Assembly: GCF_030412015.1 (NCBI RefSeq)
Contig: NZ_JASNRD010000015.1
Coordinates: forward strand, 70,030-134,029
Reading direction: 5' to 3'
Length of the DNA: 64,000 bases
DNA from: Massilia sp. YIM B02763
GTDB lineage: Bacteria > Pseudomonadota > Gammaproteobacteria > Burkholderiales > Burkholderiaceae_D
Part shown: one piece after another, positions 41,854 to 63,343 of the stretch
Numbering within the stretch: position 1 is the first letter of the stretch
Layout: each line of letters opens with the position of its first letter
Program-made: the position numbers and the translations under genes
The notes under the pieces: model-generated
Told to the model about the DNA's origin: nothing
Databases searched by the model: none
Seen by the model: the letters and a program-made list of their open reading frames with translations, nothing else

Positions 41854-43191
<1,338 letters not shown>

Positions 43192-43236: not shown

Positions 43237-43250
43237 TGAAAACGATAACA
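43237..43250. promoter_or_regulatory. LacI-type operator upstream of the GH1 gene
   Basis: TGAAAACGATAACA keeps the TGAAA and central CG of the locus operator, with three mismatches to TGAAATCGATTTCA. Its place between the TonB-receptor stop and the GH1 start suggests that GH1-glk-MFS has its own repressed promoter. Confidence 0.5.
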
Positions 43251-43263
43251 TACTGGATGGCGG

Positions 43264-43299
43264 CGGGCCGGGGCGCCGCTTTCGCGCTGCCCCGGCCCG
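43264..43299 (-). terminator. Strong hairpin between the TonB-receptor and GH1 genes
   Basis: CGGGCCGGGGC (43264-43274) pairs perfectly with GCCCCGGCCCG (43289-43299). It follows the TonB-receptor stop by 11 bases. There is no T-tract, so it may attenuate or protect the upstream message more than terminate it. Confidence 0.5.
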
Positions 43300-43310
43300 G
43301 ATGCGCCGGA

Positions 43311-45752
43311 TCAGAAATCGACGCCGGTATTGAAGCCGAAGGTGCGCGGCGGCTGGTACTGGCCGACCCACGCGCCGAAGGCGTTGCTGGCGCTGGTCTT
43401 GATCTTTTCGTCGCTGACGTTGCGCACGAACAGGTCGAGCCACCACTTGTCGCGGCTGTAGCGCAGGCCGAGGTCGGCGCGGCCGAACTCCTTCTGGCGG
43501 TCTTCCGGACCCAGGTCGAACACGGACAGCGTGGTCTTGGTCTCGTAGTGGGCCGAGATGCGCGGCGCCAGGGTCTCGCCGTCGCCCAGGCGGAACACGT
43601 GCTGGTACTGCACGTGGGCCGAGAACTTCGGCGTGTGCGGCATGGTGTGGCCGGTCACGTCCAGGCAGGTGCTGATGCCGGGGACGCTGCAGGCCGGCAG
43701 CACGTAGTCGTTGGAGCCGCCAATCAGGTGGCCCAGCTTGGCGTGCGGCGTGAAGGTCAGCGCGGCCAGGATGCGGTCGTCCGGGCTCAGCTTGGCCGTG
43801 ATCTCCGACTCCAGGCCGTAGATCTTGGCGCCTTCGGCGTTGTTGGTGGCCAGGCCGCGGGTGCCGTCCGGGTTGGTCACCGGGGCGCTGAACTGGAAGC
43901 CGCGGAAGCGCTCGTAGAACAGCGCGTTGTTGATCTGCAGGGCGCCGTTCAGGAACGTGCTCTTGTTGCCGATCTCGTAGTTGGTCAGCGTCTCGTCGCC
44001 GTACGGACGGCCGCCGTCCTGCAGGCCGCCCGACTTGTAGCCGGTCGACACGCTGGCGTAGACCATGTTGCGGCGGTCGATGTCGTAGCTCACGCGCGCC
44101 AGGCCGGTCCACTTGCTGCCCGTGTACTCGCCCGAGTTGGACGGGTTGTTCGGGGTGTAGCCCTGGCCCGGGCGGGTCGGGTCGATCTGCGGCGAGACCG
44201 GGACCTGCGGCACGGTCGGATCGCCGTTCCAGCTGTAGCCGTTGCCGCCTTCGTTGGTGCGCTTGTCGTGCGTGTAGCGCGCGCCGCCGGTCAGGTGCAG
44301 GCTGTCGTTGATGTTCCAGGTGGCCTGGCCGAAGGCGGCCGACGATTTCACGGTCTCTTTCGGCTGGATGAAGGAACCCTGCCAGTTGACGGTGCCCGAC
44401 TGGGTGCCGTTGAAGATCGGGATGTCGAAGCGGATGCTGTTGTCCTCGGCGCCGTAGTACAGGCCCAGCTGCCAGTCCACCGTGCGCTTGCCCAGCGACT
44501 GCAGTTCCACTTCGTGGCTGTAGTTCTTGTAGTGCGACTGCACGGTATTGTTGGCCTGGTAGGTGGCGCCTGTCGAGAAGCTGGTCGGGATCGCCACGCC
44601 GGCGTCCTGGTCGTAGGTCGAGCTGCCGTCGAACTTCGACCAGCCGGCGATGTAGGTCAGGCCCATCTCCGGGGTCAGCTCGTACTCCAGGCGCGAACGG
44701 ACCGAGTCGGTGTCGCGCTTGAGCGTCGGCGCAACGTCGGCCAGCGTCGACCAGAAGTCCTGGCCGGGACGCGGGTTCTGCATCAGGTTCATCGGCAGCG
44801 TGCCGCGGTCGGCGAAGCGCTCGTAGGCGATGTTCCAGTGCAGCTTGTCGGTCGGCTGCCACAGGAAGGACAGGCGCACGGCCGTCTGGTCCTGCGAATT
44901 GTACTTGTCGCCGCTGTTGACGAACTGGCCGGCATTGATCGGCTGGAACTTGGCCGGATCGCCGCCGCTGGCGGCCCAGGCCGCGCGCTGGCTGTCCAGC
45001 GGGATGTTCGGCAGGCGCTGGTAGTCGACGTAGCCGTCGTGCTGCTCGTGCACGAAGGCGACGCGCATCGCGGCCTTCTCGCCCAGCGGGATGTTGACGG
45101 CGCCGCGCGCGCCGTAGCGCTTGTAGTCGCCCAGGCCGATCTCGGCGCTGCCGCTGTGGCTGCCCAGCTTCGGCTTGGCGGTCTGCATGTTGACGGCGCC
45201 GACGGTCGAGTTGCGGCCCCACAGCGTGCCCTGCGGGCCACGCAGCACTTCGATGGTGTCGAGGTCGAACAGCAGGCTGGTGGCGCCTTCCGGACGCGGC
45301 GAGTACACGCCGTCGACGAACACGGCGACCTCGGGGTCGGCGTATTCGGTCTTGGCGCTGTCGTTGCCGATGCCGCGCATGGTAAAGGTGGTGACGCCGT
45401 GGTCGCCCTGGCCGGTGGCCTGGAAGCCCGGTACCAGGCTGACCACGTCGAGCAGGGTCTGGACGTGGTTGTCTTCCAGCGTCTGCGCGTTCAGCGCGGT
45501 GACGGCGATCGGGGTCTTCTGCAGCGAGGTGGAACGTTTGGTCGCGGTCACGATGACTTCGGCCACCTTGCCGTTGTCGGCGATCTGGGCGGTCGGGGCG
45601 GTCTGCGCCGCCGGGGCGCCGGAACCTGCGGGCACGGCCGGATCAGTCGCCTGGGCATGGGCGTTCGCGGCCGCGAAACCGGTGCACAGGGAGAGGATGG
45701 CGAATTGAATCGGCGTGACGATGCGCCGGCCGTGGGGGGCGGTCTTCTTCAT
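43311..45752 (-). CDS. TonB-dependent outer-membrane receptor
   Basis: An 813-residue receptor with a signal peptide (residues 1-38, ending AHAQA). A TonB box-like EVIVTATKR is at about 66-74, then the plug domain (TPIAVTALNAQTLEDNHVQT, VLRGPQGTLWGRNSTVGAVN), and a 22-strand barrel that ends in the aromatic terminus RTFGFNTGVDF. It should bring a large substrate, here probably a beta-glucoside oligosaccharide or glycosylated aromatic, into the periplasm. Iron siderophores are the usual alternative, but the GH1/glucokinase context favours a sugar. ATG 45752 is chosen over the upstream TTG because a GGAG site sits nine bases before it. It is divergent from the halogenase gene, with two operator copies between them. 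Confidence 0.93.
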   Translation of the reverse strand: MKKTAPHGRRIVTPIQFAILSLCTGFAAANAHAQATDPAVPAGSGAPAAQTAPTAQIADNGKVAEVIVTATKRSTSLQKTPIAVTALNAQTLEDNHVQTLLDVVSLVPGFQATGQGDHGVTTFTMRGIGNDSAKTEYADPEVAVFVDGVYSPRPEGATSLLFDLDTIEVLRGPQGTLWGRNSTVGAVNMQTAKPKLGSHSGSAEIGLGDYKRYGARGAVNIPLGEKAAMRVAFVHEQHDGYVDYQRLPNIPLDSQRAAWAASGGDPAKFQPINAGQFVNSGDKYNSQDQTAVRLSFLWQPTDKLHWNIAYERFADRGTLPMNLMQNPRPGQDFWSTLADVAPTLKRDTDSVRSRLEYELTPEMGLTYIAGWSKFDGSSTYDQDAGVAIPTSFSTGATYQANNTVQSHYKNYSHEVELQSLGKRTVDWQLGLYYGAEDNSIRFDIPIFNGTQSGTVNWQGSFIQPKETVKSSAAFGQATWNINDSLHLTGGARYTHDKRTNEGGNGYSWNGDPTVPQVPVSPQIDPTRPGQGYTPNNPSNSGEYTGSKWTGLARVSYDIDRRNMVYASVSTGYKSGGLQDGGRPYGDETLTNYEIGNKSTFLNGALQINNALFYERFRGFQFSAPVTNPDGTRGLATNNAEGAKIYGLESEITAKLSPDDRILAALTFTPHAKLGHLIGGSNDYVLPACSVPGISTCLDVTGHTMPHTPKFSAHVQYQHVFRLGDGETLAPRISAHYETKTTLSVFDLGPEDRQKEFGRADLGLRYSRDKWWLDLFVRNVSDEKIKTSASNAFGAWVGQYQPPRTFGFNTGVDF

Positions 45753-45819
45753 TACTACAGTCTCCAAATAATTATGCGCGCGTCGGGGCGCGCGGCGATG
45801 GCTTGGCGATTATTTTTAT

Positions 45820-45854
45820 TGAAAACGATTTCAGTAGAAGTGAAATCGATTTCA
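45820..45854. promoter_or_regulatory. Two LacI operators between the divergent TonB-receptor and halogenase genes
   Basis: TGAAAACGATTTCA (45820-45833) and the perfect palindrome TGAAATCGATTTCA (45841-45854) have starts 21 bases apart, in the 177-base divergent interval. They lie 68-102 bases before the receptor start and 76-110 before the halogenase start, so both promoters can be repressed by the locus LacI protein. Confidence 0.8.
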
Positions 45855-45929
45855 TCGTACACTCAGCAGAAATCCGATGTCAAACATAATTTTTCAAAAG
45901 AACATGCCCGGCAGGGCGATGGAGACCAT

Positions 45930-47522
45930 ATGCACACCGAAAAACCGGCCGCGCACGGCGGTGTATTGATCGTCGGCGGCGGCACCGCCGGCTGGCTCAC
46001 CGCCTGCTTCCTGGCGAAGCAATTGGGCGCGGGCCGCCCCGACGGCGTGCCCGTCACGCTCGTGGAATCGCCCGAGATCGGCATCATCGGCGTGGGCGAG
46101 GGCACCTTCCCCTCGATCCGCGGCACGCTCGCCGCGATCGGCATCGACGAGGCCCGCTTCATCCAGGCCTGCAGCGCCACCTTCAAGCAGGGCATTTCGT
46201 TCCGCCACTGGGTGCGCGCGCCCGGCCAGGCGGGGCCGGCCAGCTACTTCCACCCGTTCAGCCAGCCGAGCCAGCGCCAGGGCGGCTTCGAGCTGCTGCC
46301 GTACTGGCTCGCGGGCGACGCTGGCGCTGTGGGCAACCCTGGCTTCGCCGCAGCCGTCACGATGCAGCAGCGCGTGGCCGATGCCGCCCACGGGCCGAAG
46401 CGCGTCCACGATCCGGATTTCCTCGGCCCGCTGAACTACGCCTACCACTTCGACGCGGCGCGCTTCGCCGCGCTGCTGGCCGAACATGGCCGCACGCTGG
46501 GCGTGCGCCACGTGCTGGGCAACGTCGAGCGCGTCGAACTGGATGCGCAAGGCATGATCGGCGCCGTCCATACGGCGGAACACGGGGCGCTGCGGGCCGG
46601 CCTGTACGTCGACTGCACTGGTTTCCGCGCGCGCCTGATCGGCGAAGCGCTGGGCGCGCCGTTCAAGCGCCTGGACGACGTGCTGTTCGTGGACCGCGCC
46701 GTCACGCTGCAGGTGCCGTACGCCACGCCCGACGCCCCGATCCCGTCGTACACGATCTCGACGGCGCACGAGGCCGGCTGGACCTGGGACATCGGCCTGC
46801 AGCGGCGGCGCGGCATCGGCTACGTGTATTCGAGCCGCCATACGGACGATGCGCGCGCGGAGCAAGCCCTGCGCGGCTACATCGGCGCCGGCGCCGACGG
46901 ACTGGAGGCGCGCCGCCTGGCGCTGCAGGTCGGCTACCGCGAGACGCAGTGGGTCGGCAACTGCGTGGCCGTGGGCCTGTCCGGCGGGTTCCTGGAACCG
47001 CTGGAATCGTCCGGCATCGGACTGATCGAGGCCGCCGCCTACCTGGTCGGCTTCCTGTTCCCGCACGGCGGCGAGTTCGCGCCGGCGGCGCGCCAGTTCA
47101 ATGCGCAGATGCGCGAGCGCTACGAGCGCATCGTCGACTTCATCAAGCTGCACTACTGCCTGACGCAGCGCGTGGACAGCCGCTTCTGGATCGACAATGC
47201 CGACCCGGCGTCGATCCCGGATTCGCTGCGCGACCGCCTCGAGCAATGGAAGACCAGGCCGCCGCACCGCCTCGACTTCGTCACGGACCTGGAGATGTAT
47301 CCGCCGTCCAGCTGGCAATACGTGCTGTACGGGATGGAGTACGCGACCCGCCTGCATCCGTCGGCGCTGGATCCGGCGCGCCGCGCCGCCGCGCGCCAGG
47401 AATTCGCCACCATCGCCCAGGTGGCCAGGAAGGCGCTGGCGGACCTGCCGCCGCACCGGGCGCTGGTCGAGCATTTCTGTAACAAGGCGGCGCGTTCAGG
47501 AAACGCGCGCCACGTTGCATGA
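45930..47522 (+). CDS. Flavin-dependent (tryptophan) halogenase-family protein
   Basis: A 530-residue flavoprotein of the tryptophan 7-halogenase family. The FAD-binding GGGTAGW is at residues 16-22, GVGEGTFPSIR at 54-64, and the catalytic-lysine equivalent is Lys86 (CSATFKQGISF), which in halogenases forms the chloramine/positions HOCl. The family's W-x-W-x-I-P barrier motif reads W284-T-W286-D-I288-G289, so the proline is lost. This motif version belongs to a branch found next to TonB receptors in sugar loci and is not tied to a natural-product cluster. GGAG precedes ATG 45930. It is divergent from the receptor and lies 94 bases before the LacI gene. Halogenation, or another flavin oxidation of an imported aromatic glycoside, is possible. 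Confidence 0.9.
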   Translation: MHTEKPAAHGGVLIVGGGTAGWLTACFLAKQLGAGRPDGVPVTLVESPEIGIIGVGEGTFPSIRGTLAAIGIDEARFIQACSATFKQGISFRHWVRAPGQAGPASYFHPFSQPSQRQGGFELLPYWLAGDAGAVGNPGFAAAVTMQQRVADAAHGPKRVHDPDFLGPLNYAYHFDAARFAALLAEHGRTLGVRHVLGNVERVELDAQGMIGAVHTAEHGALRAGLYVDCTGFRARLIGEALGAPFKRLDDVLFVDRAVTLQVPYATPDAPIPSYTISTAHEAGWTWDIGLQRRRGIGYVYSSRHTDDARAEQALRGYIGAGADGLEARRLALQVGYRETQWVGNCVAVGLSGGFLEPLESSGIGLIEAAAYLVGFLFPHGGEFAPAARQFNAQMRERYERIVDFIKLHYCLTQRVDSRFWIDNADPASIPDSLRDRLEQWKTRPPHRLDFVTDLEMYPPSSWQYVLYGMEYATRLHPSALDPARRAAARQEFATIAQVARKALADLPPHRALVEHFCNKAARSGNARHVA

Positions 47523-47531
47523 AACAATTTC

Positions 47532-47545
47532 TGAAATCGGTTTCG
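47532..47545. promoter_or_regulatory. LacI operator upstream of the LacI gene
   Basis: TGAAATCGGTTTCG matches the locus operator except at two positions. It covers the probable -35 region of a promoter whose -10 is TATACT (47553-47558), so autorepression of the regulator is likely. Confidence 0.65.
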
Positions 47546-47616
47546 CCGCTGCTATACTCGTCGTGCCTGGTGTGGAATACAGACCTCCACGCCAACCACG
47601 AGACGAAGAAAGCACC

Positions 47617-48636
47617 ATGAAAAAAGAGCCCAGCAGCAGCGCGATGGTCACCGTGCACGAAGTGGCGCGCGTGGCCGGCGTTTCCGCCGCCACCGTGTCG
47701 CGCTTCCTGAACGGCACCGCCCGCGTATCCGAGGACAAGCGCCAGGCCATCGAGAGCGTGATCAGCAAGTTGAACTACAAGCCGAACGTGCTCGCGCAGA
47801 ACCTCAAGATGGGCAGCTCGCGCACCGTCGGCGTGCTGACCCAGTCGCTGATGTCCGGCTACTTCGCCGACGCGCTGGCCGGCGTCGACGAGGCGCTGCA
47901 GGGCACCGGCTACGCGCCGCTGATCGTGTCCGGCCACTGGCATGCGGACGAGGAGGCGGAGCGCATCGAACTGCTGATCGCGCGCCGGGTCGACGGCCTC
48001 GTGATCCTGAGCGGCAAGCTGAAGGACGCGCAGATCCTGAAACTGTCGCAGCGCGTGCCCATCGTCGCCTTCGGCCGCGAGCTGCAGGGCCCGCGCGCCT
48101 ACGGCTTCTGCCTGGACAACTACTGGGGCGCCTGCGAGGCGGTCGAGCACCTAATCGTCCAGGGCCATCGCAACATCGCCTTCATCGGCGGGCCGTCCGA
48201 CCACACGGACGCGCTGGCGCGCCTGGCCGGCTACCGCGACACGCTGGCCAAGCACCGTATCAAGGAAAAGCAGCAGCTGATCGTGGCCGGCGACTTCCAG
48301 GAATCGAGCGGCCTGCTGGCGGTGGAGCGGCTGCTGGAATCGGGCCAGCGCTTCTCCGCGATCTTCTGCGCCAACGACCTGACGGCCTACGGCGCGCGCC
48401 TCGCGCTGTACCGGCGCGGCATCCGCGTGCCCGAGGACATCTCGCTGATCGGCTTCGACGACCTGCACAGCTCCATGTACACGACGCCGCCCCTGACCAC
48501 CGTGCGCCAGCCGCTGTTCGACGTCGGCAAGAGCCTGGGCCGCGCAATCGTCAAGATGATCGGCAACGAAGCGCACGACGTCGACGTGCCGCAGCTGAAC
48601 CTGGTGGTACGCGAATCCGTCCGCCGCGTCGGCTGA
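47617..48636 (+). CDS. LacI-family transcriptional repressor of the beta-glucoside locus
   Basis: A 339-residue LacI/GalR protein. The helix-turn-helix (TVHEVARVAGVSAATVSRFL, then NGTARVSEDKRQAI) and the hinge helix (KPNVLAQNLKMGSS) are complete. The periplasmic-binding-like core has VGVLTQSLMSGYFADALAGV and, near the end, ISLIGFDDLHSSMYTTPPLT. It should bind the TGAAATCGATTTCA family of sites and release them when a sugar or sugar phosphate binds. ATG 47617 gives a normal N-terminus. A match to its own operator lies upstream. The receptor, GH1/glk/MFS and halogenase genes around it are the inferred targets, and a distant Gfo/Idh gene also has the site. Confidence 0.94.
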   Translation: MKKEPSSSAMVTVHEVARVAGVSAATVSRFLNGTARVSEDKRQAIESVISKLNYKPNVLAQNLKMGSSRTVGVLTQSLMSGYFADALAGVDEALQGTGYAPLIVSGHWHADEEAERIELLIARRVDGLVILSGKLKDAQILKLSQRVPIVAFGRELQGPRAYGFCLDNYWGACEAVEHLIVQGHRNIAFIGGPSDHTDALARLAGYRDTLAKHRIKEKQQLIVAGDFQESSGLLAVERLLESGQRFSAIFCANDLTAYGARLALYRRGIRVPEDISLIGFDDLHSSMYTTPPLTTVRQPLFDVGKSLGRAIVKMIGNEAHDVDVPQLNLVVRESVRRVG

Positions 48637-48659
48637 TTCGCTTGCCATCATTCGGGGTT

Positions 48660-48764
48660 AATTCGGGGTCAGAGCACATTTTCGAGCGTCGATCCTTCGT
48701 AACTCGTTGATTTTGCGATGAATAATTGCGCGGCTGCCGAAAAAATGTGCTCTGACCCCGAATT
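48660..48764. repeat. 105-base inverted-repeat element (MITE/REP-like)
   Basis: Perfect 23-base arms at 48660-48682 and 48742-48764 (core GGGGTCAGAGCACATTTT) enclose a 59-base spacer. The right arm runs into the stop codon of the hydrolase gene. A direct repeat, ATTCGGGGT, lies just left of the element (48650-48658) and again inside it. Similar arms flank REP-associated transposases in related bacteria as far as I recall; no transposase is present here. Confidence 0.7.
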
Positions 48765-49633
48765 TATTTGCTTGTCTTGATGAACGTGGCGATGTAGCCG
48801 GCTGCCGTTTCCGGGTATTGGTGCTGCGGGCCGTGACCGGCCTGCGGGAAGGTCACGAGTTGCAGCGTAGGCAGCTGGCCGTTCAGCGCATGCCAGTTCT
48901 CGACCGGGAACACGATGTCGTGGTCGCCGGCGATGTGCAGGATGGGCAGCGTCGTGTGCTTCAGCGCTTCCAGGATTTGCGGGGCCGGGAAGGCGGGGAA
49001 GCGCGGCGTGGGGCCCAGGATGGCGGCGGCCCAGGCGGCGTCGATGTCGGGGCTGCGGCCTTCGCGGCGCTCCCAGGTGCGCGCGTACGATGCGGCCGCC
49101 GCGGCGCGGCTCGCTGCGGACTTCGGCTCGAAGAACAGGATGGTGTCCTTGTCGACGCTGCTGCCGGCGATGGCGGCGGTCTCGTTGAACAGGGCCTCGC
49201 CGGGCTTGACGGCGACGTCCGGCGCGGCCGTGGCGATCAGGACGGCGTGGGACAAGCGCTGCGGCTGGGTCGCCGCCACGATTTGCGCCACCATGCCGCC
49301 CAGCGACCAGCCGGCGATCACGGCGTCGCGCAGGCCCAGCGCCTCCATCAGGCCCACGGCATCGCGCGCCAGCAGCGCCGGGTTCATCTGGCGCTCGCCG
49401 CTGGACAGGCCCCAGCCCGCGTAGTCGAAGGTGATCACGCGCAGGCCATGGCCCGCGAGCGCGTCGAGGAAGGCCGGATCCCACATGTCGAGGTTGCCGC
49501 GAAAGCGCACGCACAGCAGGATCGGCTTGCCCGCGGGATCGCCGATCGAGCGGTAGGCCAGGCGGCGGTCGCCCAGGTCGGCGTACTGGTTGGGCGCGTC
49601 GATGGCGCTGTAGTGTGCGGTATTCGTAGTCAC
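48764..49633 (-). CDS. Alpha/beta hydrolase
   Basis: A 289-residue alpha/beta-hydrolase-fold enzyme. The nucleophile elbow is GWSLGG (Ser), the oxyanion region VRFRGN, the catalytic acid probably Asp in LHIAGDHDIVFP and the His in AGHGPQHQYPE. The pattern (IGDPAGKPILLCVRFRGNLD, then MWDPAFLDALAGHGLRVITF) places it with the haloperoxidase-like or carboxylesterase-like hydrolases. It is probably an esterase of unknown substrate. The GTG start at 49633 has AGAGGA upstream. An SDR gene begins the same strand's operon 21 bases before, and the stop codon abuts the inverted-repeat element. Confidence 0.9.
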   Translation of the reverse strand: MTTNTAHYSAIDAPNQYADLGDRRLAYRSIGDPAGKPILLCVRFRGNLDMWDPAFLDALAGHGLRVITFDYAGWGLSSGERQMNPALLARDAVGLMEALGLRDAVIAGWSLGGMVAQIVAATQPQRLSHAVLIATAAPDVAVKPGEALFNETAAIAGSSVDKDTILFFEPKSAASRAAAAASYARTWERREGRSPDIDAAWAAAILGPTPRFPAFPAPQILEALKHTTLPILHIAGDHDIVFPVENWHALNGQLPTLQLVTFPQAGHGPQHQYPETAAGYIATFIKTSK

Positions 49634-49654
49634 TGCATCCTCTTTTCGATAGGG

Positions 49655-50398: not shown

Positions 50399-50450
50399 GA
50401 TCTGCTCCTCGATGGTGAAGGGGATGAATGCAGTATCATTCCAACCGCCG

Positions 50451-55446: not shown

Positions 55447-57144
55447 ATGCCCACCGCCTTCCGCCCACGCCGCCACACGATGTCCATCCTGCTCCTCGCC
55501 GGCGCCGCCTTGCTCGCGCCGCTGACGGCCGCCGCCGCCCCCGCCGCGACGAAGTCCGTTGGCGCGGCCAGCGCCGCCGCCGTGAAACCCAAGCTGGTCG
55601 TGGTGATGGTGATCGACGGCCTGCCGTCCGAGCAGGTGCAGCGCTACCGCGACCAGTTCGGCCCGGGCGGCCTGCGCCGCCTGCTGGAGCAGGGTGCGAG
55701 CTTCACCAACGCGCACCAGGCGCACGGCGTGACCGTCACGGCGATCGGCCACACGGCCGTGCTGTCCGGCGCCTATCCGTACCGGCACGGCATCATCGGC
55801 AACAACTGGCTCGACGCCGACGGCAATTCCGTCTACTGCACCGAAGACAGGCGCTTCACCTACATCGGCGAGGAAACCGATGCCCACGACGGCACCTCGC
55901 CCGCCAACCTGCGCGTGGACACGCTGGGCGACCAGCTGCGCTACGCGACGGGCAACCGCAGCAAGGTATTGACGGTGTCCGGCAAGGACCGCGGCGCGAT
56001 CCTGTTGGCGGGCAAGACCGGCACCGCCTACATGTTCATGGACAAGACCGGCGACTTCGCCAGCAGCACCTATTACATGCAGCAGCACCCGGCCTGGGTC
56101 CAGCGTTTCCAGGCGGGCAAGCCACAGGACCGCTACTACGCCAAGTCGTGGAAGCCGCTGCTGGCCGATAGCGCGTATGCCGACGACGCGCCGTATCCGG
56201 AAGCGACCACGAAAAGCCCGAACCGCTTCCCGTTCACCTTCTACAGCGAGAGCGGCAAGCCGGACGGGGACTACTACGGCCGCCTGAAGGTCAGCCCCGC
56301 CGTCGACGAGCTGACGCTGGACTTCGCCCAGGCCGCCGTCGAGGGCGAGCAGCTGGGCAGCAACCCGAGCGGCGCCACCGACATCCTCGGCATCAGCCTG
56401 TCGGGCCACGACTACGTGAACCACGCCTACGGCCCGGAAAGCCGCATGTCGCACGACCACCTGCAGCAGATCGACCGCCGCATCGCGACCTTCTTCGACT
56501 TCCTCGACCGCCGCATCGGCATGGACAACGTGCTGGTCGTGCTGACCGCCGACCACGGGTTCTCGAACACGCCGGAATTCTCGCAGTCGCGCCATATCGA
56601 CGCGCAGCGCATCGATCCGAAAGCGCTGCTGGATGGGCTGGACAAGGCCCTGGCCGCGCGCTTCGGCGCCACGGGCCTGGTGAAGAAGTCGATGCTGCCC
56701 GAGGTCTACCTCGACTATGCCGCCATCGACAAGCGCGGCCTGGCGCGCGCCGACGTGGAAAGCGCGGCGGCGCGCCACCTGCTGGGCCAGCCCCATATCG
56801 CCGAGGTGTTCACGCGCACCCAATTCGAGGAAGGCGTGGCCTCCAGGTCGCGCCTGGGCCTCATGATGCAGCGGGCCTGGAACCGCCAGATGTCCGGTGA
56901 CCTGATGGTGGTGCCGAGCGCCTATTCCTTCTTCGGCAGCGGCAGCTCGGGCACGACCCACGGTACCCCGTACAACTACGACAGCTCGGTGCCGCTGCTG
57001 ATCATGGGCAAGCGCTGGATCCATCCGGGCGACGTGGGCCAGTACACGGAGGTCGTGGACATCGCGCCGACGCTGGCCCACATCCTGCGCGTGCGCGCGC
57101 CGGCCGCCGCCGAAGGCCGCGTGCTGGTCGAAGCGTTGCGCTGA
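55447..57144 (+). CDS. PafA-like alkaline phosphatase family protein
   Basis: A 565-residue secreted phosphatase of the alkaline phosphatase superfamily (phosphate-irrepressible PafA type). After a signal sequence (RHTMSILLLAGAALLAPLTA), metal ligands appear in VVMVIDGLPSEQ (Asp), SGHDYVNHAYGP (Asp/His), LTADHGFSNTP (Asp/His) and THGTPYNYD (His). The nucleophile is a Thr near TVTAIGHTAVLSGAYPYRHG. The companion NNW segment lies in GIIGNNWLDADG. It hydrolyses phosphomonoesters in the periplasm without PhoB control. The start is uncertain: ATG 55447 is chosen for its signal peptide, though ATG 55423 and 55399 are in frame. The next gene, ppx/gppA, is 80 bases downstream; a phosphate theme links the pair. 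Confidence 0.9.
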   Translation: MPTAFRPRRHTMSILLLAGAALLAPLTAAAAPAATKSVGAASAAAVKPKLVVVMVIDGLPSEQVQRYRDQFGPGGLRRLLEQGASFTNAHQAHGVTVTAIGHTAVLSGAYPYRHGIIGNNWLDADGNSVYCTEDRRFTYIGEETDAHDGTSPANLRVDTLGDQLRYATGNRSKVLTVSGKDRGAILLAGKTGTAYMFMDKTGDFASSTYYMQQHPAWVQRFQAGKPQDRYYAKSWKPLLADSAYADDAPYPEATTKSPNRFPFTFYSESGKPDGDYYGRLKVSPAVDELTLDFAQAAVEGEQLGSNPSGATDILGISLSGHDYVNHAYGPESRMSHDHLQQIDRRIATFFDFLDRRIGMDNVLVVLTADHGFSNTPEFSQSRHIDAQRIDPKALLDGLDKALAARFGATGLVKKSMLPEVYLDYAAIDKRGLARADVESAAARHLLGQPHIAEVFTRTQFEEGVASRSRLGLMMQRAWNRQMSGDLMVVPSAYSFFGSGSSGTTHGTPYNYDSSVPLLIMGKRWIHPGDVGQYTEVVDIAPTLAHILRVRAPAAAEGRVLVEALR

Positions 57145-57224
57145 CGCCGCGGCGGGATGCGCCCATCGCGCCGCGTCCCGCTATACTTCGCACCACGAGC
57201 ACTTTCACTTCCGGTAAGAACCCC

Positions 57225-58679
57225 ATGTACGCAGCAGTCGACCTCGGCTCCAACAGCTTCCGTCTCCACATCGGCGAACCGATCGCCGGCCAGATCCACC
57301 TCGTGCGCACGGCGCGCGATCCGATCCGGCTGGCCGCCGGCCTCGGACCCGGCAACGTGCTGGGGGCGGACGCCCAGGCCACGGCCCAGAAGACGCTGCG
57401 CGACTTCGGCGCCATCCTGCGCCAGTACCGGCTGGACGCCGTGCGCGTGGTGGCCACCAACACGCTGCGCGTGGCCGCGAACGCGGAGCAGGTGCTGCCG
57501 CGGCTGGAGGAAGCCATCGGCTATCCGATCGAGATCATCTCGGGGGAAGAAGAGGGAAGGCTGATCTACATGGGCGTGGCGCGCGCGCTGGGCGCGAAGC
57601 CGGAGCAGCGCCTCGTGATCGACATCGGCGGCGGCTCGACGGAACTGATCGCGGGCCTGGGCGACGAGATCGGCATGGTCGAGTCGTTCAGCATCGGCAC
57701 CCATCCGCAGAGCGCCGCCTACTTCGAGGGCGGCCACATCAGCGCAGATGCCTTTCACTCGGCGGTGAACGCGGCGCGCGCCCGTTTCGAGGACCTGGCC
57801 GGGCAATTCCGCGAACACGGCTGGGAGGCCGTGTACGGCTCCTCCGGCACGATCCGCGCGATCAACGAAGTCATCGCCAGGAACGGCCTGGGGGACGGCA
57901 CCATGTCCTTCGCCAGCCTGCTGGCGCTGCGCGACAGGCTGATCGACCTCGGCCACGTGGACGCCTTCGACCTGCCGGGCGTCAAGCGCGAGCGCGTGAT
58001 CGTCATGGTCGGCGGCTTGTCCATCCTGATCGGCGTGATGCAGGAACTGGGAGTGAAGACCATGACAGCGATTAATGCCGGCCTGCGCCTCGGGGTGCTG
58101 TCCGATCTCGAATTGCGCGCCAACCGTCAGGACCGGCGCGACCTGGCGATCCAGGACTGCATGCGCCGCTTCGGCGTCGATGCCGGCCGCGCCGCGCGCA
58201 CGGCGAATATCGCGCGCAAGCTGTTCGACAAGCTCGCGCCGCAGGACGAAGCCGTGGCCCACCACCTGCTGCGCGGCACCATGCTGCACGAGGTGGGCCT
58301 GGCCGTCTCGCACACTGGAGCGCACAAGCACGCGGCCTATATCGTCGAGCATGCCGACCTGCCGGGCTTCACGGCGCGCGAGCAGCGCCTGATGAGCATG
58401 ATCGTGCTGGGGCAGAAGGGCAATCTGCGCAAGGTGCGCGAGGTGCTCGCGGCGCCGGACCTGGCCAAGGCCGTGCTGGCACTGCGCCTGGCGGCCGTCT
58501 TCATGCACGCGCGCGTGGACGCCGACGTCGACACGCTCAAGCTGCGCATGAAGGGCAGGATCGACGTCGAGACGCCGCGCGGCTGGCTGGGCCAGCATCC
58601 GACGGTGGCATCGTGGTTCGAGAAGGAGGCGGCGGCGTGGAGCGACGTCGGCATCCCGTTCCAGGTGACCCAGGGCTGA
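57225..58679 (+). CDS. ppx: Exopolyphosphatase / guanosine pentaphosphatase
   Basis: A 484-residue Ppx/GppA protein with an actin-like ATPase fold. Phosphate-loop 1 is AAVDLGSNSFRLHIG, loop 2 is LVIDIGGGSTELIAG, and the catalytic Glu lies in IISGEEEGRLIYMG. The C-terminal HD-like domain has LLRGTMLHEVGLAVSHTGAH with the expected His-Glu cluster and ends in the extra helical domain of full-length Ppx. It removes terminal phosphates from polyphosphate and/or converts pppGpp to ppGpp; sequence alone does not separate the two. ATG 57225 is the start. The preceding PafA-like phosphatase suggests a phosphate-handling neighbourhood. Confidence 0.94.
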   Translation: MYAAVDLGSNSFRLHIGEPIAGQIHLVRTARDPIRLAAGLGPGNVLGADAQATAQKTLRDFGAILRQYRLDAVRVVATNTLRVAANAEQVLPRLEEAIGYPIEIISGEEEGRLIYMGVARALGAKPEQRLVIDIGGGSTELIAGLGDEIGMVESFSIGTHPQSAAYFEGGHISADAFHSAVNAARARFEDLAGQFREHGWEAVYGSSGTIRAINEVIARNGLGDGTMSFASLLALRDRLIDLGHVDAFDLPGVKRERVIVMVGGLSILIGVMQELGVKTMTAINAGLRLGVLSDLELRANRQDRRDLAIQDCMRRFGVDAGRAARTANIARKLFDKLAPQDEAVAHHLLRGTMLHEVGLAVSHTGAHKHAAYIVEHADLPGFTAREQRLMSMIVLGQKGNLRKVREVLAAPDLAKAVLALRLAAVFMHARVDADVDTLKLRMKGRIDVETPRGWLGQHPTVASWFEKEAAAWSDVGIPFQVTQG

Positions 58680-58804
58680 CGATGGCTTTTTGTGAAGGTT
58701 TTTTTGCAATCCGGCGCGTGCGCGCCGCCCCGGATGTGTTAAATTTGCCAGATTAATTCAACACGCTTGTTCCCGGCACCCAAGCCACGTGCCGGTACCT
58801 CGCC

Positions 58805-59236
58805 ATGCCGCATATCCTCCTGGTCGACGACGAAGAAGCAGTGCGCTACGTCTTCGAACGCTATCTCAGCATCCTCGGTTATCGCATCACGACGGCGCGC
58901 GACGGTGCCGAAGCGCTCGGCATGCACCAGGCCGATCCCGCCGACCTGATCATCACCGATTTCCGCATGCCCTATATGGACGGCGGCGAATTGCTGGCGC
59001 GCCTGCGCCGCATCGATCCGCACCTGCCGGCAATCCTGATTTCCGCCAACCCGGTCGATGCCGGACCGCTGCTGGACGGCGTGCGCTTCTTCTCCAAGCC
59101 GGTCTCGATGCCGGCGCTGTCCGAGACCATCGCCGCCATGATCGGCGGCGGCCGGCCGGGCCCCGGCGAAGGCATCGGACACGGCAATCGGGTCGGCGAG
59201 CCGAACGCATTGCGCAGCCGCCAGTGCGCCGCATAA
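58805..59236 (+). CDS. Receiver-only response regulator
   Basis: A 143-residue CheY-like protein. The receiver pocket is complete: Asp8/Asp9 (LLVDDEEAV), phospho-acceptor Asp52 (IITDFRMPYMDG), Ser in LISANPVD, and Lys in RFFSKPVSM. The last ~30 residues are Gly/Arg-rich and outside the fold. No DNA-binding domain is present, so it must act on a partner protein, for example an orphan kinase such as that at 22.7 kb or a GGDEF protein. ATG 58805 is the start. It is a single-gene unit that ends two bases before a perfect palindrome. Confidence 0.9.
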   Translation: MPHILLVDDEEAVRYVFERYLSILGYRITTARDGAEALGMHQADPADLIITDFRMPYMDGGELLARLRRIDPHLPAILISANPVDAGPLLDGVRFFSKPVSMPALSETIAAMIGGGRPGPGEGIGHGNRVGEPNALRSRQCAA

Positions 59237-59238
59237 GG

Positions 59239-59268
59239 ACGTCGCCCCGGCGCAGGCCGGGGCGACGT
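59239..59268. repeat. Perfect REP-like palindrome in a convergent gap
   Basis: A 13-base stem, ACGTCGCCCCGGC (59239-59251) with GCCGGGGCGACGT (59256-59268), closed by GCAG. It starts three bases after the response-regulator stop and faces the convergent PEP-CTERM gene. The same core, GTCGCCCCGGCGCAGGC, recurs at 62047-62130. Confidence 0.7.
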
Positions 59269-59323
59269 GATGGCTGCTGACGGAAGGCGCCGGACCGATG
59301 GATCCCGGCGGCCCCGCCGTTCT

Positions 59324-59974
59324 TCAACCACGCTTGCCGCGGCGGCGCAGGCCGGCCGCCAGGGCCAGGCCCAGGCCGAACGTGGCCAGCGTCGCCGGCT
59401 CCGGCACGGCCTTCGGGCCGATGCCGTCGTTGGCCGCGAACGTCGTGAAGCTGGCGCCGGCGGCCTTGAACTGGGCCTGCTGGACGCCGTCGCAGCAGCC
59501 TTCCAGACCGTAGATCGTCAGCGTGTGGTTGCCCGCGGCGAGCAGCGAGGAGGCCTGCAGGTATTGCGTCGTGGAGGAGTAGCTATTGCCCCAGTACATA
59601 TCCGTCGAGCGCGAGGTCAGCGCCACGCCGTCCAGGAACAGGGCGCCGCCGTAGCCGAAATCGACGCCGGTACGGAAGGTCCAGGTGGCCGCGTTCGCCA
59701 CGCTGAAGTCGATCGTCGCCTTCCATGCGATATTGCTGTTGCTGCCGCCGCTGAACTGGTTCGCGTTGGAGAGATTGTCGTAGGACGAGATGGTCTTCGT
59801 GCCGTAGCCCGCGCCCTGGCTCAGCAGCGCGCGCTCGACCACGTCCTTGTAGGCCGTGGCACTGCTTTGCGACCCGGCGTTGCTGTAGGCGGTCTGCAGG
59901 GTGATGACGCTGGCGTTTGCCTGGGCGGCGAAGCAGGCGAGGAGGATGGCGCAGCTGGTCTTAACGTTTTTCAT
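59324..59974 (-). CDS. PEP-CTERM exported protein with CCxG motif
   Basis: A 216-residue exported protein: signal peptide MKNVKTSCAILLACFAAQANA, a beta-rich mature region, and a C-terminal PEP-CTERM sorting signal (AVPEPATLATFGLGLALAAG then RRRGKRG). PEP-CTERM tails are recognised by exosortase A, which anchors proteins for envelope or exopolysaccharide assembly. The motif GLEGCCDGVQQAQF holds adjacent cysteines, the pattern named CCxG in some PEP-CTERM families. The region LFLDGVALTSRSTDMYWG resembles PA14/fibro-slime-type lectin-like folds, giving a sugar-binding guess. ATG 59974 starts it. No exosortase gene lies in the window. Divergent from SMP-30, 82 bases away. Confidence 0.88.
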   Translation of the reverse strand: MKNVKTSCAILLACFAAQANASVITLQTAYSNAGSQSSATAYKDVVERALLSQGAGYGTKTISSYDNLSNANQFSGGSNSNIAWKATIDFSVANAATWTFRTGVDFGYGGALFLDGVALTSRSTDMYWGNSYSSTTQYLQASSLLAAGNHTLTIYGLEGCCDGVQQAQFKAAGASFTTFAANDGIGPKAVPEPATLATFGLGLALAAGLRRRGKRG

Positions 59975-60056
59975 TGTCTTTCAGGAAAATATATTTGCGT
60001 ATTTGTAAATATACCATCGGTGTGGACAGTTTGTTGAAATTGATGATCGGATAATA

Positions 60057-61022
60057 ATGAACAATAAAAATTTGATGTTTTCGCGCAACGTCGTGCATGC
60101 GGCATGGGGGACGATGCTGGCGGCGCTCGCCATTCCCGCCATGGCGGCGGACATGACCAGTTGCGCGGGCAAGGCCCCGTCCGGCGAACTGCGCGCCGAG
60201 CGGGTGGCGGCCGCGGCGCCGTCGCGGGAAGGCGCTTCCCTGTACGAGGGCCCCGTCTGGATCGGCGGCGCGCTGTACTTCTCGGACTTCGGCCTGGAGG
60301 GGACCTTCCCGTCCCGAATCCGCAAGCTGGCGCCGGACGGCAGCGTGGGCACGGCCTTCGAGGACAGCGGCAGCAACGGCCTGGCCGTCGACGGCGCCGG
60401 CAAGCTCGTCGCGGCCAGCCACAAGGACAAGGCGTTGGTGCGCATCGACCTGGCGAACGGCAAGCGCACGCCGATCGCGGGGCGCTACGACGGCCAGCCG
60501 TTCAATTCGCCGAACGACATCGCCATCGCCCGCGACGGCACCCTGTACTTCACCGACCCGGATTACCAGCAGGCGGCCGCGCCCGGCCGCCAGGGCGTCA
60601 CCGGCATCTACCGGGTCGGCACGGACGGCAAGGCGGCGCTGCTGGACGGCAGCCGCAAGAACCCGAACGGCATCGCCCTGTCGCCCGACGAGAAGGTGCT
60701 GTACGTGAATGCGCTGGATGGCGTGCTGCGCGCCTATCCGGTCGTCGACGGCGCCGCGCGCCTGCCGGGCCGCGACGTGGTCAAGGGCCTGGACGGGCCG
60801 GACGGCATGACGGTCGATTGCCAGGGGAACGTCTACGTGACGGAGCACGCCGCCAGGCGCGTGCGCGTGTTTTCGCCGCAGGGCAGGGAGCTGGCGACGA
60901 TCCGCGTCGACGCGAACGTGACCAACGCGGCCTTTGGCGGCGGCGACGGCAAGACGCTGTACATCACGGGGGCTGGCGCCTTGTGGCAGGTACGGCTCGG
61001 CCTGCCGGGCAAGCCGTATTGA
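60057..61022 (+). CDS. Exported SMP-30/gluconolactonase-family protein
   Basis: A 321-residue six-bladed propeller protein with a signal sequence (residues 1-31: RNVVHAAWGTMLAALAIPAM then AADM). SMP-30/gluconolactonase landmarks: YEGPVWIGGALYFSDFGLEG with the Glu metal ligand, SGSNGLAVDGAGKLVAASHK, NSPNDIAIARDGTLYFTDPD (Asn/Asp ligands), NPNGIALSPDEKVLYVNALD and GPDGMTVDCQGNVYVTEHAA. It hydrolyses sugar lactones in the periplasm. That could connect with the exported Gfo/Idh oxidoreductase 1.1 kb downstream, whose oxidation of a sugar would give a lactone, although the two genes are on opposite strands. ATG 60057 has only a weak ribosome-binding site. Confidence 0.92.
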   Translation: MNNKNLMFSRNVVHAAWGTMLAALAIPAMAADMTSCAGKAPSGELRAERVAAAAPSREGASLYEGPVWIGGALYFSDFGLEGTFPSRIRKLAPDGSVGTAFEDSGSNGLAVDGAGKLVAASHKDKALVRIDLANGKRTPIAGRYDGQPFNSPNDIAIARDGTLYFTDPDYQQAAAPGRQGVTGIYRVGTDGKAALLDGSRKNPNGIALSPDEKVLYVNALDGVLRAYPVVDGAARLPGRDVVKGLDGPDGMTVDCQGNVYVTEHAARRVRVFSPQGRELATIRVDANVTNAAFGGGDGKTLYITGAGALWQVRLGLPGKPY

Positions 61023-61059
61023 CGAGGGCCGGTACGGCGCCTGCCGCACCGGCGCCGGA

Positions 61060-61383
61060 TCAGCGGGTAGAGGTACCGGAGGTGCTGGAGCTGCCCGAGG
61101 TGTTGCCCGACGTGCTGGACGGCTGGGTCGCGCCGCCCGTCGAGGTGCCGCTGGGGTCGCTGGCGGTCGGCGTGTTGTAGGCGCCGATGCCCGTCGTGTT
61201 GCCGGTGCCGCCCGAGCTGGCGCCGTTGTCGCTCTCCGTCCGGCCGGCCCCGTTGCTGCTACCGGTGCTCGAGCTCATGCCGCCGAACGAGCCGGCGCTG
61301 TCATTGGTCGTGCCGGTGGAGCTGCAGGCGGCCAGGCCAAGCGCCATCAGGCCGCCGATCAGTACGCGTTGAACCGTTTTCAT
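61060..61383 (-). CDS. Low-complexity Ser/Thr/Gly-rich lipoprotein
   Basis: A 107-residue lipoprotein. The signal MKTVQRVLIGGLMALGLAAC ends in a perfect lipobox (LAAC). After the cysteine the sequence is almost only Ser, Thr, Gly, Asn and Ala (short runs such as SSSTGSSNGAG), with no folded domain visible. A GGGAGA ribosome-binding site precedes ATG 61383. Such proteins are frequent in this bacterial family and have no known role; a flexible envelope spacer is possible. It converges on the SMP-30 gene with 37 bases between. Confidence 0.8.
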   Translation of the reverse strand: MKTVQRVLIGGLMALGLAACSSTGTTNDSAGSFGGMSSSTGSSNGAGRTESDNGASSGGTGNTTGIGAYNTPTASDPSGTSTGGATQPSSTSGNTSGSSSTSGTSTR

Positions 61384-61556
61384 GGTCTTCTCCCGTGGGT
61401 GTTTGCTGGCGTCGATCATGCGGCGCCGGCGCGCTGGCGGGAATAGGATGGGTCCGTCGGGAATTGTAGGAGCGCGCTCACGGCCTGCTTGCACTGCTTG
61501 CTGCGGGACCTGCGTCGCCCGTACACTGGTCATCCACCCAAGCGGCGGAGGAGACG

Positions 61557-62039
61557 ATGATGCCGAGCAAGAATACGGTATGCCTGTGGTTCGACGGCGA
61601 CGCCCTCGAAGCGGCGACCTTCTACGCGAAGACCTTTCCCGACAGCGCCGTCGGCAAGATCTTCCGTGCCCCGGGCGACTACCCGTCCGGCAAGCAGGGC
61701 GACGTGCTGACGGTGGAGTTCACGGTGGCCGGCATTCCCTGCATCGGCCTGAACGGCGGTCCGGCCTTCACGCACAGCGAGGCCTTCTCGTTCCAGATCG
61801 CCACCGACGACCAGGCCGAGACGGACCGCCTGTGGAACGCCATCGTCCAGAACGGCGGCCAGGAAAGCGCGTGCGGCTGGTGCAAGGACCGCTGGGGCTT
61901 GTCCTGGCAGATCACGCCGCGCGCCATGAGCGCGGCGCTTGCCGATCCCGACCAGGCCGCGGCCCGGCGCGCCTTCGAGGCGATGATGACGATGGGAAAA
62001 ATCGACATCGCCGCCATCGAGGCGGCCCGGCGTGGGTGA
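61557..62039 (+). CDS. VOC-family (PhnB-like) protein
   Basis: A 160-residue vicinal-oxygen-chelate protein of the PhnB / 3-demethylubiquinone-9 3-methyltransferase-like group. Landmarks: CLWFDGDALEAATFYAKTFP, GDVLTVEFTVAGIPCIGLNG, FTHSEAFSFQIATDDQAETD, and the closing CGWCKDRWGLSWQITPRAM. The fold is likely a dimer with a metal site; metabolic role unknown. A GGAGGAG ribosome-binding site precedes ATG 61557 (or 61560). It ends just before a REP-like pair and converges on the Gfo/Idh gene. Confidence 0.93.
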   Translation: MMPSKNTVCLWFDGDALEAATFYAKTFPDSAVGKIFRAPGDYPSGKQGDVLTVEFTVAGIPCIGLNGGPAFTHSEAFSFQIATDDQAETDRLWNAIVQNGGQESACGWCKDRWGLSWQITPRAMSAALADPDQAAARRAFEAMMTMGKIDIAAIEAARRG

Positions 62040-62046
62040 ATGAACA

Positions 62047-62130
62047 CGTCGCCCCGGCGCAGGCCGGGGCTGATGTCGTGGCGTCGCCGGAACGCGCAGG
62101 ACCTGGGCCCCGGCCTGCGCCGGGGCGACG
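62047..62130. repeat. Pair of REP-like palindromes in a convergent gap
   Basis: Two hairpins in opposite orientation: GCCCCGGC-GCAG-GCCGGGGC at 62051-62070 and GCCCCGGC-CTGC-GCCGGGGC at 62107-62126, extended by CGTC on the left and GACG on the right. The left unit has the same core as 59239-59268. Together they make an 84-base element between two convergent genes. Confidence 0.7.
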
Positions 62131-62166
62131 GTTTCATGGCCAGCGATAAACGCGGTCCGATGGGTG

Positions 62167-63273
62167 CTAGGCCTTCAGCACGACGCGCTTCTTCTCCCGC
62201 GCCGACTGGTAAATGGCCTCGATGATGCGCATGTCGCGCAAGCCTTCCTCGCCCGCGACGATCGGGGTCCGGTCTTCCATCACGCACTGCGCCATGTGGT
62301 CGAGCTGGCCGGCGAACTGCGTCGCGCCGGGGCCCGGTGGCGGCGTGATTTCCTCGCCGCGGCCGCTGCCGACCCACAGGCGGTTGCCGCGGTAGGCCGT
62401 CGCCGGTTCCATCTCGATGCGTCCCTTGTCGCCCACGAGCAGGATATGGTTCTGGTTGGCGCTGTACATCGACTGGCAGGAGCCGATCACGCCGGACGGG
62501 AATTCCAGCTGGAAGCCGATCTGGTCTTCCACTTCGCGGAAACGCGGGTCCTTGCGGTCCGTCGTTTCCTGCGCATAGACGGCGATGGGCTCCTCGCCCG
62601 TCATGTAGCGCGCCGCGTTCAGCGCGTAGATGCCGATGTCCATCATCGAGCCGCCGCCCGACATCGCCTTCTTCAGGCGCCAGGCGTTCGGGTTGCCGAA
62701 GGTGAAGCCGTGTTCGGAACGGAAGTAGCGCAGCTTGCCGATCTCGCCGGCCCGGGCGCGGCGGCGCGCTTCCAGGTTGGTCGGCTCGAAATGGCAGCGG
62801 TAGCCGATCATCAGTTTCTTGCCGGCCTGGCGGCAGGCGGCGATCATCGATTCGCACTCGGCGGAAGAGAGCGCCATCGGCTTTTCGCACAGCACGTGCT
62901 TGCCGGCCTTGGCGGCGCGGATCGTATACTCCGCGTGCATGGAGACGGGCAGGCAGACGTAGACGATGTCGATGTCCGGGTTGTCGCGGATGCGGTCGAA
63001 GTTTTCGTAGTTGTAGATATTCTTTTCCGGCACGTCGTATTGCGCGGCCACGCGTTTCGCCTTGTCCGCGTCGCCGCTGACGAGGGCGACCAGTTTGCTG
63101 TGCCGGCAGTTCTTGAATTCCGGGATGATCACGCCGAGGCCGTAGCCGCCCAGGCCCACGATGGCATAGCCCAGCTTGCGCTGCGGTTCGGCCGCGCGCA
63201 GGGGAAAGGCGGCCGCGCCGGCCGCCAGGGCGCCGCCGGCCAGCACGAGGTTGCGTCGGTTCAGGTCGATCAT
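62167..63273 (-). CDS. Tat-exported Gfo/Idh/MocA-family oxidoreductase
   Basis: A 368-residue NAD(P)-dependent sugar oxidoreductase of the glucose-fructose oxidoreductase branch. A twin-arginine signal opens it (LNRRNLVLAGGALAAGAAAF), so it is exported folded with its cofactor. The dinucleotide-binding GYAIVGLGGYGLGVIIPEF follows, then CEKPMA with the catalytic Lys, MIGYRCHFEP and GGGSMMDIGIYALNA. Family members oxidise or dehydrate sugars or inositols; glucose-fructose oxidoreductase makes gluconolactone and sorbitol. AAGGAGA is upstream of ATG 63273. A LacI-type operator lies 57 bases upstream, matching the set at 43-48 kb at 13 of 14 positions. The function is therefore probably tied to the same sugar. 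Confidence 0.93.
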   Translation of the reverse strand: MIDLNRRNLVLAGGALAAGAAAFPLRAAEPQRKLGYAIVGLGGYGLGVIIPEFKNCRHSKLVALVSGDADKAKRVAAQYDVPEKNIYNYENFDRIRDNPDIDIVYVCLPVSMHAEYTIRAAKAGKHVLCEKPMALSSAECESMIAACRQAGKKLMIGYRCHFEPTNLEARRRARAGEIGKLRYFRSEHGFTFGNPNAWRLKKAMSGGGSMMDIGIYALNAARYMTGEEPIAVYAQETTDRKDPRFREVEDQIGFQLEFPSGVIGSCQSMYSANQNHILLVGDKGRIEMEPATAYRGNRLWVGSGRGEEITPPPGPGATQFAGQLDHMAQCVMEDRTPIVAGEEGLRDMRIIEAIYQSAREKKRVVLKA

Positions 63274-63329
63274 CTGTGTTGTCTCCTTGTTGTTGTCGTA
63301 CGTGGGGCGCCGGCGGATGCCGGCGTCCG

Positions 63330-63343
63330 AGAAATCGATTTCA
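63330..63343. promoter_or_regulatory. LacI operator upstream of the exported Gfo/Idh gene
   Basis: AGAAATCGATTTCA differs at one position from the perfect operator TGAAATCGATTTCA at 45841-45854. It lies 57-70 bases before the Gfo/Idh start codon, in the same position relative to the gene as at the beta-glucoside locus. Confidence 0.7.

Follow-up and report, generated by a model that had tools for sequence, protein, structure and literature searches.

The window analysed here is the whole 64,000-nucleotide stretch of Massilia sp. YIM B02763 DNA. It contains a beta-glucoside locus with a LacI-family repressor gene and, about 13.5 kb away from that gene, a Gfo/Idh oxidoreductase gene that shares an operator-like palindrome with it. 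The features are listed below, with gene families assigned by profile unless another basis is given.

39407..40789, minus strand: AmpG-like MFS transporter gene (TIGR00901 below its cut-off)
40776..41840, minus strand: glucokinase gene (start codon picked by eye)
41854..43191, minus strand: GH1 beta-glucosidase gene (signal peptide not seen)
43237..43250, no strand: doubtful site upstream of GH1 (3 mismatches to TGAAATCGATTTCA)
43311..45752, minus strand: TonB-dependent receptor gene
45820..45833, no strand: predicted second operator TGAAAACGATTTCA, 21 bp from the main one (1 mismatch to TGAAATCGATTTCA)
45841..45854, no strand: perfect palindrome TGAAATCGATTTCA (0 mismatches), the predicted main operator for the beta-glucoside locus
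45930..47522, plus strand: Trp_halogenase-family flavoprotein gene
47532..47545, no strand: predicted weaker operator TGAAATCGGTTTCG, upstream of lacI (2 mismatches to TGAAATCGATTTCA)
47617..48636, plus strand: LacI-family repressor gene, product here named BglR (helix-turn-helix VSAATVSRFLN)
57225..58679, plus strand: Ppx/GppA-family gene, bordering on one side the interval in which linked genomes carry the oxidoreductase pair
60057..61022, plus strand: SMP-30/gluconolactonase-family gene (Pfam SGL, 4e-43; signal peptide by eye)
62167..63273, minus strand: gene for a predicted Tat-signalled Gfo/Idh oxidoreductase of the aldose-aldose / glucose-fructose oxidoreductase type (homology, N-terminus)
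63330..63343, no strand: predicted operator for the Gfo/Idh gene, reading TGAAATCGATTTCT in gene direction (1 mismatch to TGAAATCGATTTCA)
63355..63360, minus strand: putative -10 box TACAAT, 11 bp upstream of the 63330 operator in gene direction (pattern picked by eye)
63478..63975, minus strand: histidine-phosphatase gene, sixA-like by eye, the other interval border

Gene names proposed by an earlier, sequence-only reading (LacI, GH1, TonB receptor, Trp_halogenase, glucokinase, AmpG-like MFS and Gfo/Idh) agreed with the Pfam and NCBIfam results; BglR matched no NCBIfam equivalog above cut-off. The five 14-mers that this reading took for operators were all found at their coordinates, and four of them (45820, 45841, 47532 and 63330) held up. 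The fifth, at 43237, is weak: its three mismatches are at chance level, and it has no counterpart in G001, G010 or G050 (G numbers denote genomes of the genus, G000 being the present one), in which the TonB receptor and GH1 genes are adjacent and no site with up to three mismatches was found between them. The sites here are even palindromes with a central CG, the form by which LacI-family operators are recognized. Six matches with up to three mismatches were counted in the window, including a further one with three mismatches at 31719, against 0.60 expected, and none of 100 shuffles reached six. The genome-wide palindrome search that the sequence-only reading had suggested (up to two mismatches; 5.9 Mb in 68 contigs) returned 20 places versus two for a reversed control pattern, and nine places had at most one mismatch; the corresponding predictions from Markov models of the window are 1.3-4.5 and 0.05-0.22 places. 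Many matches of equal quality inside genes would, according to that reading, have counted against the operator family. One of the nine places lay inside an open reading frame (C52:219606), a proportion that does not refute the family, and eight were judged to be between genes; at C1:161574 and C10:97604 the longest reading frame covers the site, and the true start was placed downstream on the basis of a signal peptide and orthologs. Across the genus, 229 places with at most one mismatch were found in the 50 genomes with BglR versus 11 in the 12 genomes without it.

BglR matches were present in 50 of the 62 genus genomes, and the upstream regions of 28 of these, this genome included, were read. 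A site with up to three mismatches was located within 500 bp upstream of lacI in 27 of the 28, the exception being G045, and a perfect TGAAATCGATTTCA copy was located within 400 bp in 19. The 21-bp tandem seen at 45820/45841 recurs in at least six genomes (G020, G038, G050, G033, G036 and G010). A sequence of the 47532 type, TGAAA[TC]CGGTTTCn, lies 45-74 bp before lacI in G054, G037, G029, G001, G057 and G020; in G012 the distance is 268 bp. The tandem pair and the 47532 site are well supported as predicted operators of BglR. A TonB receptor or halogenase-family gene was not found beside lacI in G018, G023, G004 and G037, among others; the Trp_halogenase-family gene adjoins the TonB receptor gene here and in G020. 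Flavin halogenases carry the motif WxWxIP. The Trp_halogenase-family protein of this locus (45930-47522) has WTWDIG, and halogenation by it is doubtful. A GH31-like exported glycosidase gene (34302-36623, by eye) lies near the locus, with no site of up to three mismatches just upstream.

The Gfo/Idh protein matched the Caulobacter aldose-aldose oxidoreductase 5a02 (E 3e-126), with the EKP motif, and the Zymomonas glucose-fructose oxidoreductase 1ofg (E 4e-99), each over most of its length; every NCBIfam model that it matched scored below cut-off. Its N-terminus, MIDLNRRNLVLAGG, looks by eye like a twin-arginine start, and the RR pair is present in 29 of 29 orthologs. The protein is predicted to be an exported enzyme of the aldose-aldose / glucose-fructose oxidoreductase (AAOR/GFOR) type. 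The SMP-30 gene is convergent with the Gfo/Idh gene and about 1.1 kb away from it, with small genes between them. The two genes lie within approximately 3.5 kb of each other in this genome and in the 10 relatives with enough flanking sequence; genes of these two types are convergent in G000, G054, G012, G037, G018, G023 and G031 and divergent in G010, G034, G044 and G050. The pairing is not general, because an SMP-30 match was found in 24 of the 80 named loci and in none of the 20 from Duganella. No operator of the type studied here stands in front of the SMP-30/gluconolactonase-like gene in the linked genomes read. Several neighbours were noticed in passing: a protein that by eye resembles a PEP-CTERM sorted exported protein (59324-59974), encoded between ppx and the SMP-30 gene here and in G054; a LacI-family gene divergent from and close to the Gfo/Idh ortholog of Sphingomonas metalli (L282, 8611-9597); and, in Duganella loci L240, L243, L247 and L273, a Trp_halogenase-like match beginning about 1.9-2.0 kb beyond the Gfo/Idh ortholog's start.

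The presence of the operator before the Gfo/Idh gene depends on where the gene is. Orthologs were found in 29 of the 62 genus genomes, that is, in this genome and in 28 others at 73-86% identity. In five of the 29 (G000, G054, G012, G024 and G037) the gene is preceded by an operator with one mismatch, which begins 40-75 bp ahead of it; at 63330 the distance to the start codon is 70 bp. In four of these five (G000, G054, G012 and G037) lacI and the Gfo/Idh gene are 9.6-13.5 kb apart on one contig; the distance is unreadable in G024, a fragmented draft. None of the remaining 24 genomes had an operator with up to three mismatches before the Gfo/Idh gene, and in these the two genes are on different contigs (19 genomes, for which draft contigs do not strictly exclude nearness) or at least 0.8 Mb apart on one contig (five genomes). 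Among 2000 mononucleotide-shuffled upstream regions, none had a site with up to two mismatches. The sequence-only reading had described the oxidoreductase gene as a distant one, 16 kb away; the genus comparison shows it as part of a linked block. The operator family claimed by that reading does extend to 63330, in five of 29 genomes and, within the genus, only where the genes are linked or the linkage is unreadable; the single regulator that it assumed for all sites is treated below.

In linked genomes the oxidoreductase pair is placed between ppx and sixA. The order lacI-ppx-sixA-ppk without the pair was found in seven of eight relatives tried (G018, G023, G031, G004, G027, G017 and G020), the contig of the eighth, G026, ending too soon; as read in the first six of these, the Gfo/Idh gene is missing from the interval itself. 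The genomic location of the pair was established for 11 of the 29 genomes. Elsewhere it holds at least three other positions (seven unlinked loci compared), one of them common to G010, G034, G044 and G050. The 80 named loci contained an operator with at most one mismatch only in L253 and L257, which are G037 and G024 again, and added no independent linked genome. Pseudoduganella umbonata (L232) has a two-mismatch site about 40 bp before its Gfo/Idh gene, and the other query genes of the neighbourhood (bgl genes) gave no match within 10 kb of it; because of this site without linked bgl genes, linkage is not strictly required outside the genus. A site, TGAAATCGTTTTCA, was also seen about 14 kb from the unlinked Gfo/Idh gene of G017 (L127:5019), and G004 has a similarly placed one.

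Other palindromes were found before the unlinked Gfo/Idh genes. Of the 24 genomes without the operator, 10 have [TC]GTGAGCGCTAACA starting 32-66 bp before the gene and 13 have TGWTAHCGCTAYCA starting 88-119 bp before it; G031 has neither. One of the three palindromes is thus present at the Gfo/Idh gene in 28 of 29 genomes, and two together in none. In the ten [TC]GTGAGCGCTAACA genomes a TAAAAT or TACAAT box lies exactly 11 bp before the palindrome, the slot used in the linked class. Box spacing was compared in 16 of the 29 genus genomes (the 13 with TGWTAHCGCTAYCA being left out) and in 40 of the 80 named loci; among the latter, 19 of 20 Duganella loci have a -10-like box and none of the three operators. 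In eight genomes searched, TGWTAHCGCTAYCA gave one match, at the Gfo/Idh gene, in each of G010, G034, G039 and G044, and two to four matches elsewhere in the other four. TGTKAGCGCTAACA occurs at the Gfo/Idh gene in G018, G023 and G028 and once elsewhere in G010; searches of G004, G031, G000 and G044 gave no match. These two palindromes are weaker footprints than the linked set, because the surrounding blocks are conserved too.

A search beside 30 of the 54 LacI genes of four genomes pointed to a possible partner for them. Just before a gluconokinase gene (TIGR01313) near a GntR-type LacI gene, a palindrome in the TGnTAnCGnTAnCA frame was found at three of five loci (G034, G044 and G039). Three loci with this arrangement are:

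L304:4005: GntR-type LacI gene near gluconokinase, TGnTAnCGnTAnCA palindrome at the gluconokinase start
L305:2573: GntR-type LacI gene near gluconokinase, TGnTAnCGnTAnCA palindrome at the gluconokinase start
L307:4315: GntR-type LacI gene near gluconokinase, TGnTAnCGnTAnCA palindrome at the gluconokinase start

The LacI protein scores above the GntR equivalog cut-off (NCBIfam NF052440) in G034 and G039, that of G044 being assigned by look-alike sequence only. In G018 the GntR-type gene has a palindrome of this frame at its end, and gluconokinase was not seen there; at the GntR-type gene of the present genome (C1:38978, likewise above cut-off), the 8 kb that were read contain no such palindrome. 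In this genus the TGnTAnCGnTAnCA palindrome may serve as a gluconate operator. Its frame, or a close one, is shared by the palindromes before unlinked Gfo/Idh genes, which within one genome are two to four bases away from the gluconokinase sites, so that unlinked Gfo/Idh genes may be under gluconate control; the linked genomes, this one included, have a TGAAA-type operator at the Gfo/Idh gene instead. The number of LacI-family genes varies, with 24 in G018 (7.4 Mb) versus nine in this genome.

Is the 63330 site an operator at all, and which protein would bind it? A chance match or a relic without regulatory role would be consistent with a lone site that has one mismatch and no tandem partner, and a scan of 63200-63600 for a consensus sigma-70 promoter found nothing. 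Such an origin is very unlikely, given that only about 0.2 places with at most one mismatch are expected in the whole genome and that the 14-mer has been kept in five genomes while its flanks diverged. In nine of the ten pairwise comparisons of the five promoters (ungapped), the 14-mer is 93-100% identical, versus 20-53% for the 45 bp upstream and 10-37% for the 30 bp downstream; the tenth pair, G024/G037, is near-identical throughout. The distance from the TACAAT box to the operator is also nearly fixed, at 11, 11, 12, 11 and 11 bp. The comparison makes it very probable that 63330 is genuine and serves the Gfo/Idh gene as a LacI-type operator. The identity of its binder is less certain, because two other LacI paralogs share nearly the same operator, and here the claim of one regulator for all sites is not supported. 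The operator sequence proved not to be private to BglR: nGAAATCGATTTC[TG] stands upstream of 17 of the 20 XynR-type LacI genes read, with a two-mismatch variant at one more and no such site in G000 and G013, and C20-type LacI genes have TGAAATCG[AG]TTTC[TGA] upstream in 15 of 20 read (four of the five misses are relatives at 59-61%, and the fifth is G054, where the site does exist). The operator could then be bound by the XynR-type (C1:185426) or C20-type (C20:24250) repressor, or by several jointly, which would place the oxidoreductase in a wider plant-polysaccharide response. The site beside this genome's C20 LacI gene (C20:24018) is the identical 14-mer, sites of this genome also stand before a GH9 gene and a GH74-like gene (GH74 name by eye), and the Caulobacter AAOR acts on xylose, as described in the part of PMC4628093 cited here. 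The last base of the Gfo/Idh site is T or C, in line with the paralog sites (mostly T/G), and that of the main BglR sites is A; T/C in this position nevertheless fits XynR-type, C20-type and some BglR sites, and the flanks have no common bases, so an assignment by outer base or flanks was rejected. All three repressors are present in G000, G054, G012 and G037. Against the paralogs, XynR- and C20-type genes also occur where an unlinked Gfo/Idh gene lacks the site, for example in G018 and G023, and no XynR match was found in G024, a draft 87% complete. We consider binding by another paralog or joint binding possible though doubtful, and lean slightly towards BglR, because only the linkage to the bgl genes favours BglR and the P. 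umbonata site speaks against strict linkage.

The history of the linked state bears on either regulator alike. In the Gfo/Idh tree the operator-bearing genomes form two groups, {G000, G054} and {G012, G024, G037}, which need two changes, and a single clade was not rejected (p_AU 0.104); two changes are likewise needed on the ppk tree (11 genomes), and four on the BglR tree. Because there are only two groups, the association between operator and linkage rests on one or two events, and the Fisher p of 5e-5 (G024 left out, relatedness ignored) overstates the independent events. An ancestral linked state with its operator, lost elsewhere as the genes dispersed, is an account that the trees cannot separate from gain; we judge it rather unlikely, as the pair has at least the three other positions described above, one shared by four genomes, and 19 of 20 Duganella loci have the -10-like box without any of the three operators. 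Gain of the operator on relocation is likelier than loss elsewhere, because the pair has several other positions.

Returning to BglR as the binder, the comparison mildly favours a local BglR regulon for beta-glucosides that has been extended to the AAOR/GFOR-type oxidoreductase gene. BglR would bind the tandem operators between the TonB receptor and halogenase-family genes, as well as the weaker one before its own gene. The oxidoreductase gene, sitting between ppx and sixA with a gluconolactonase-type gene nearby, would be repressed from the operator 11 bp downstream of the putative -10 box, where a bound repressor would block the start of transcription. A sugar derived from beta-glucosides, the effector that we infer, would release BglR, so that in the presence of beta-glucosides the repressor leaves and the exported enzyme is made. 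Outside the cytoplasm, the enzyme would oxidize free aldoses to lactones and reduce a second sugar in the process, gluconolactone being the expected product. The sequence-only reading had gone further and proposed one regulon for the uptake, cleavage, phosphorylation and periplasmic oxidation of one sugar. LacI-type sites, 63330 among them, are what remains of that proposal; the single regulator has been dealt with above, and the single-sugar pathway was rejected, since the GH1 enzyme probably stays in the cytoplasm (inspection by eye showed no signal peptide), the Gfo/Idh protein looks exported and its close relative uses xylose. Because of these apparent locations, the two enzymes need not share one substrate molecule.

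The simplest reading of the promoter comparison is that, beside the beta-glucoside locus, the enzyme changed repressor; the relocated sugar oxidoreductase gene was probably captured by a LacI locus of an ordinary kind. A more specific version, plausible enough to state but put forward tentatively, is that the gfo and gnl-like pair wanders within the genus and gfo swaps repressor with position, being under gluconate-type (GntR) control elsewhere and under TGAAATCGATTTCY-type control beside the beta-glucoside locus, which would replace control by product with control by substrate. The 14-bp cassette would have been swapped in place, because two classes have their operator in an identical slot, 11-12 bp beyond a -10-like box common to both.

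Same-family operators were also observed at loci of other kinds. L001, L114, L123 and L125 are xylan/xyloglucan-type loci (GH9, GH31 and GH67 by profile, GH74-like by eye) whose LacI has the helix-turn-helix VSAMTVSRVMN or VSPMTVSRVMN and whose own sites end in T or G. In five genomes a site with at most one mismatch lies beside a ROK-type regulator gene (L003:6605, L111:4971, L117:4989, L126:4969 and L130:4985), and its other flank, where read, holds a TonB receptor gene; these families were assigned by profile in G000 only.

Control of a gnl-gfo pair by a LacI-family protein has a precedent. The gnl-gfo genes of Caulobacter are predicted targets of GluR, a LacI protein close to BglR1-3 (Ravcheev et al., 2014; PMC4052901). 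In the part of that paper cited here, GluR and BglR1-3 resemble the present case as LacI-family regulators of glucose or beta-glucoside genes with CG-centred even palindromes and the gnl-gfo enzyme pair; GluR differs in being a wider regulator with zwf-pgl-edd-glk among its targets and a 20-bp motif of its own. In the present case the linked repressor is that of the local beta-glucoside locus, a site stands before gfo only, and gfo and the gnl-like gene are convergent and form no operon; none of the nine places with at most one mismatch stands before zwf-pgl-edd genes (by eye and profile). The Caulobacter gene CC1225 (5a02) also has a gluconolactonase neighbour, CC1224, with which it forms a putative operon (PMC4628093, in the part cited); its genomic position and operator differ from those found here, and its product and the Zymomonas enzyme (1ofg, 1h6a) match the present protein over nearly the whole length, with the EKP motif and a Tat-type signal. 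A TonB receptor for plant carbohydrate uptake is likewise a component of Xanthomonas sugar-uptake loci, as outlined in the cited part of PMC1790865, in which a connection to an oxidoreductase was not seen. Literature searches found nothing that joins Massilia, LacI, beta-glucosidase and TonB-dependent (RegPrecise being outside the search), nothing that joins LacI, TonB-dependent, tryptophan halogenase and sugar, and nothing relevant on gene relocation and rewiring. Within the literature searched, a betaproteobacterial beta-glucoside regulator as the linked candidate and the co-variation of gene position with operator are new.

The observation is modest in itself, yet sharply testable. The function of the aldose-aldose oxidoreductase is called unclear in the cited part of PMC4628093, and the proposed ties to a beta-glucoside repressor here and to gluconate-type operators in relatives give testable conditions for its expression. 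Since gene position and operator type shift together within one genus, these bacteria offer a compact natural test of how a local repressor may recruit a gene.
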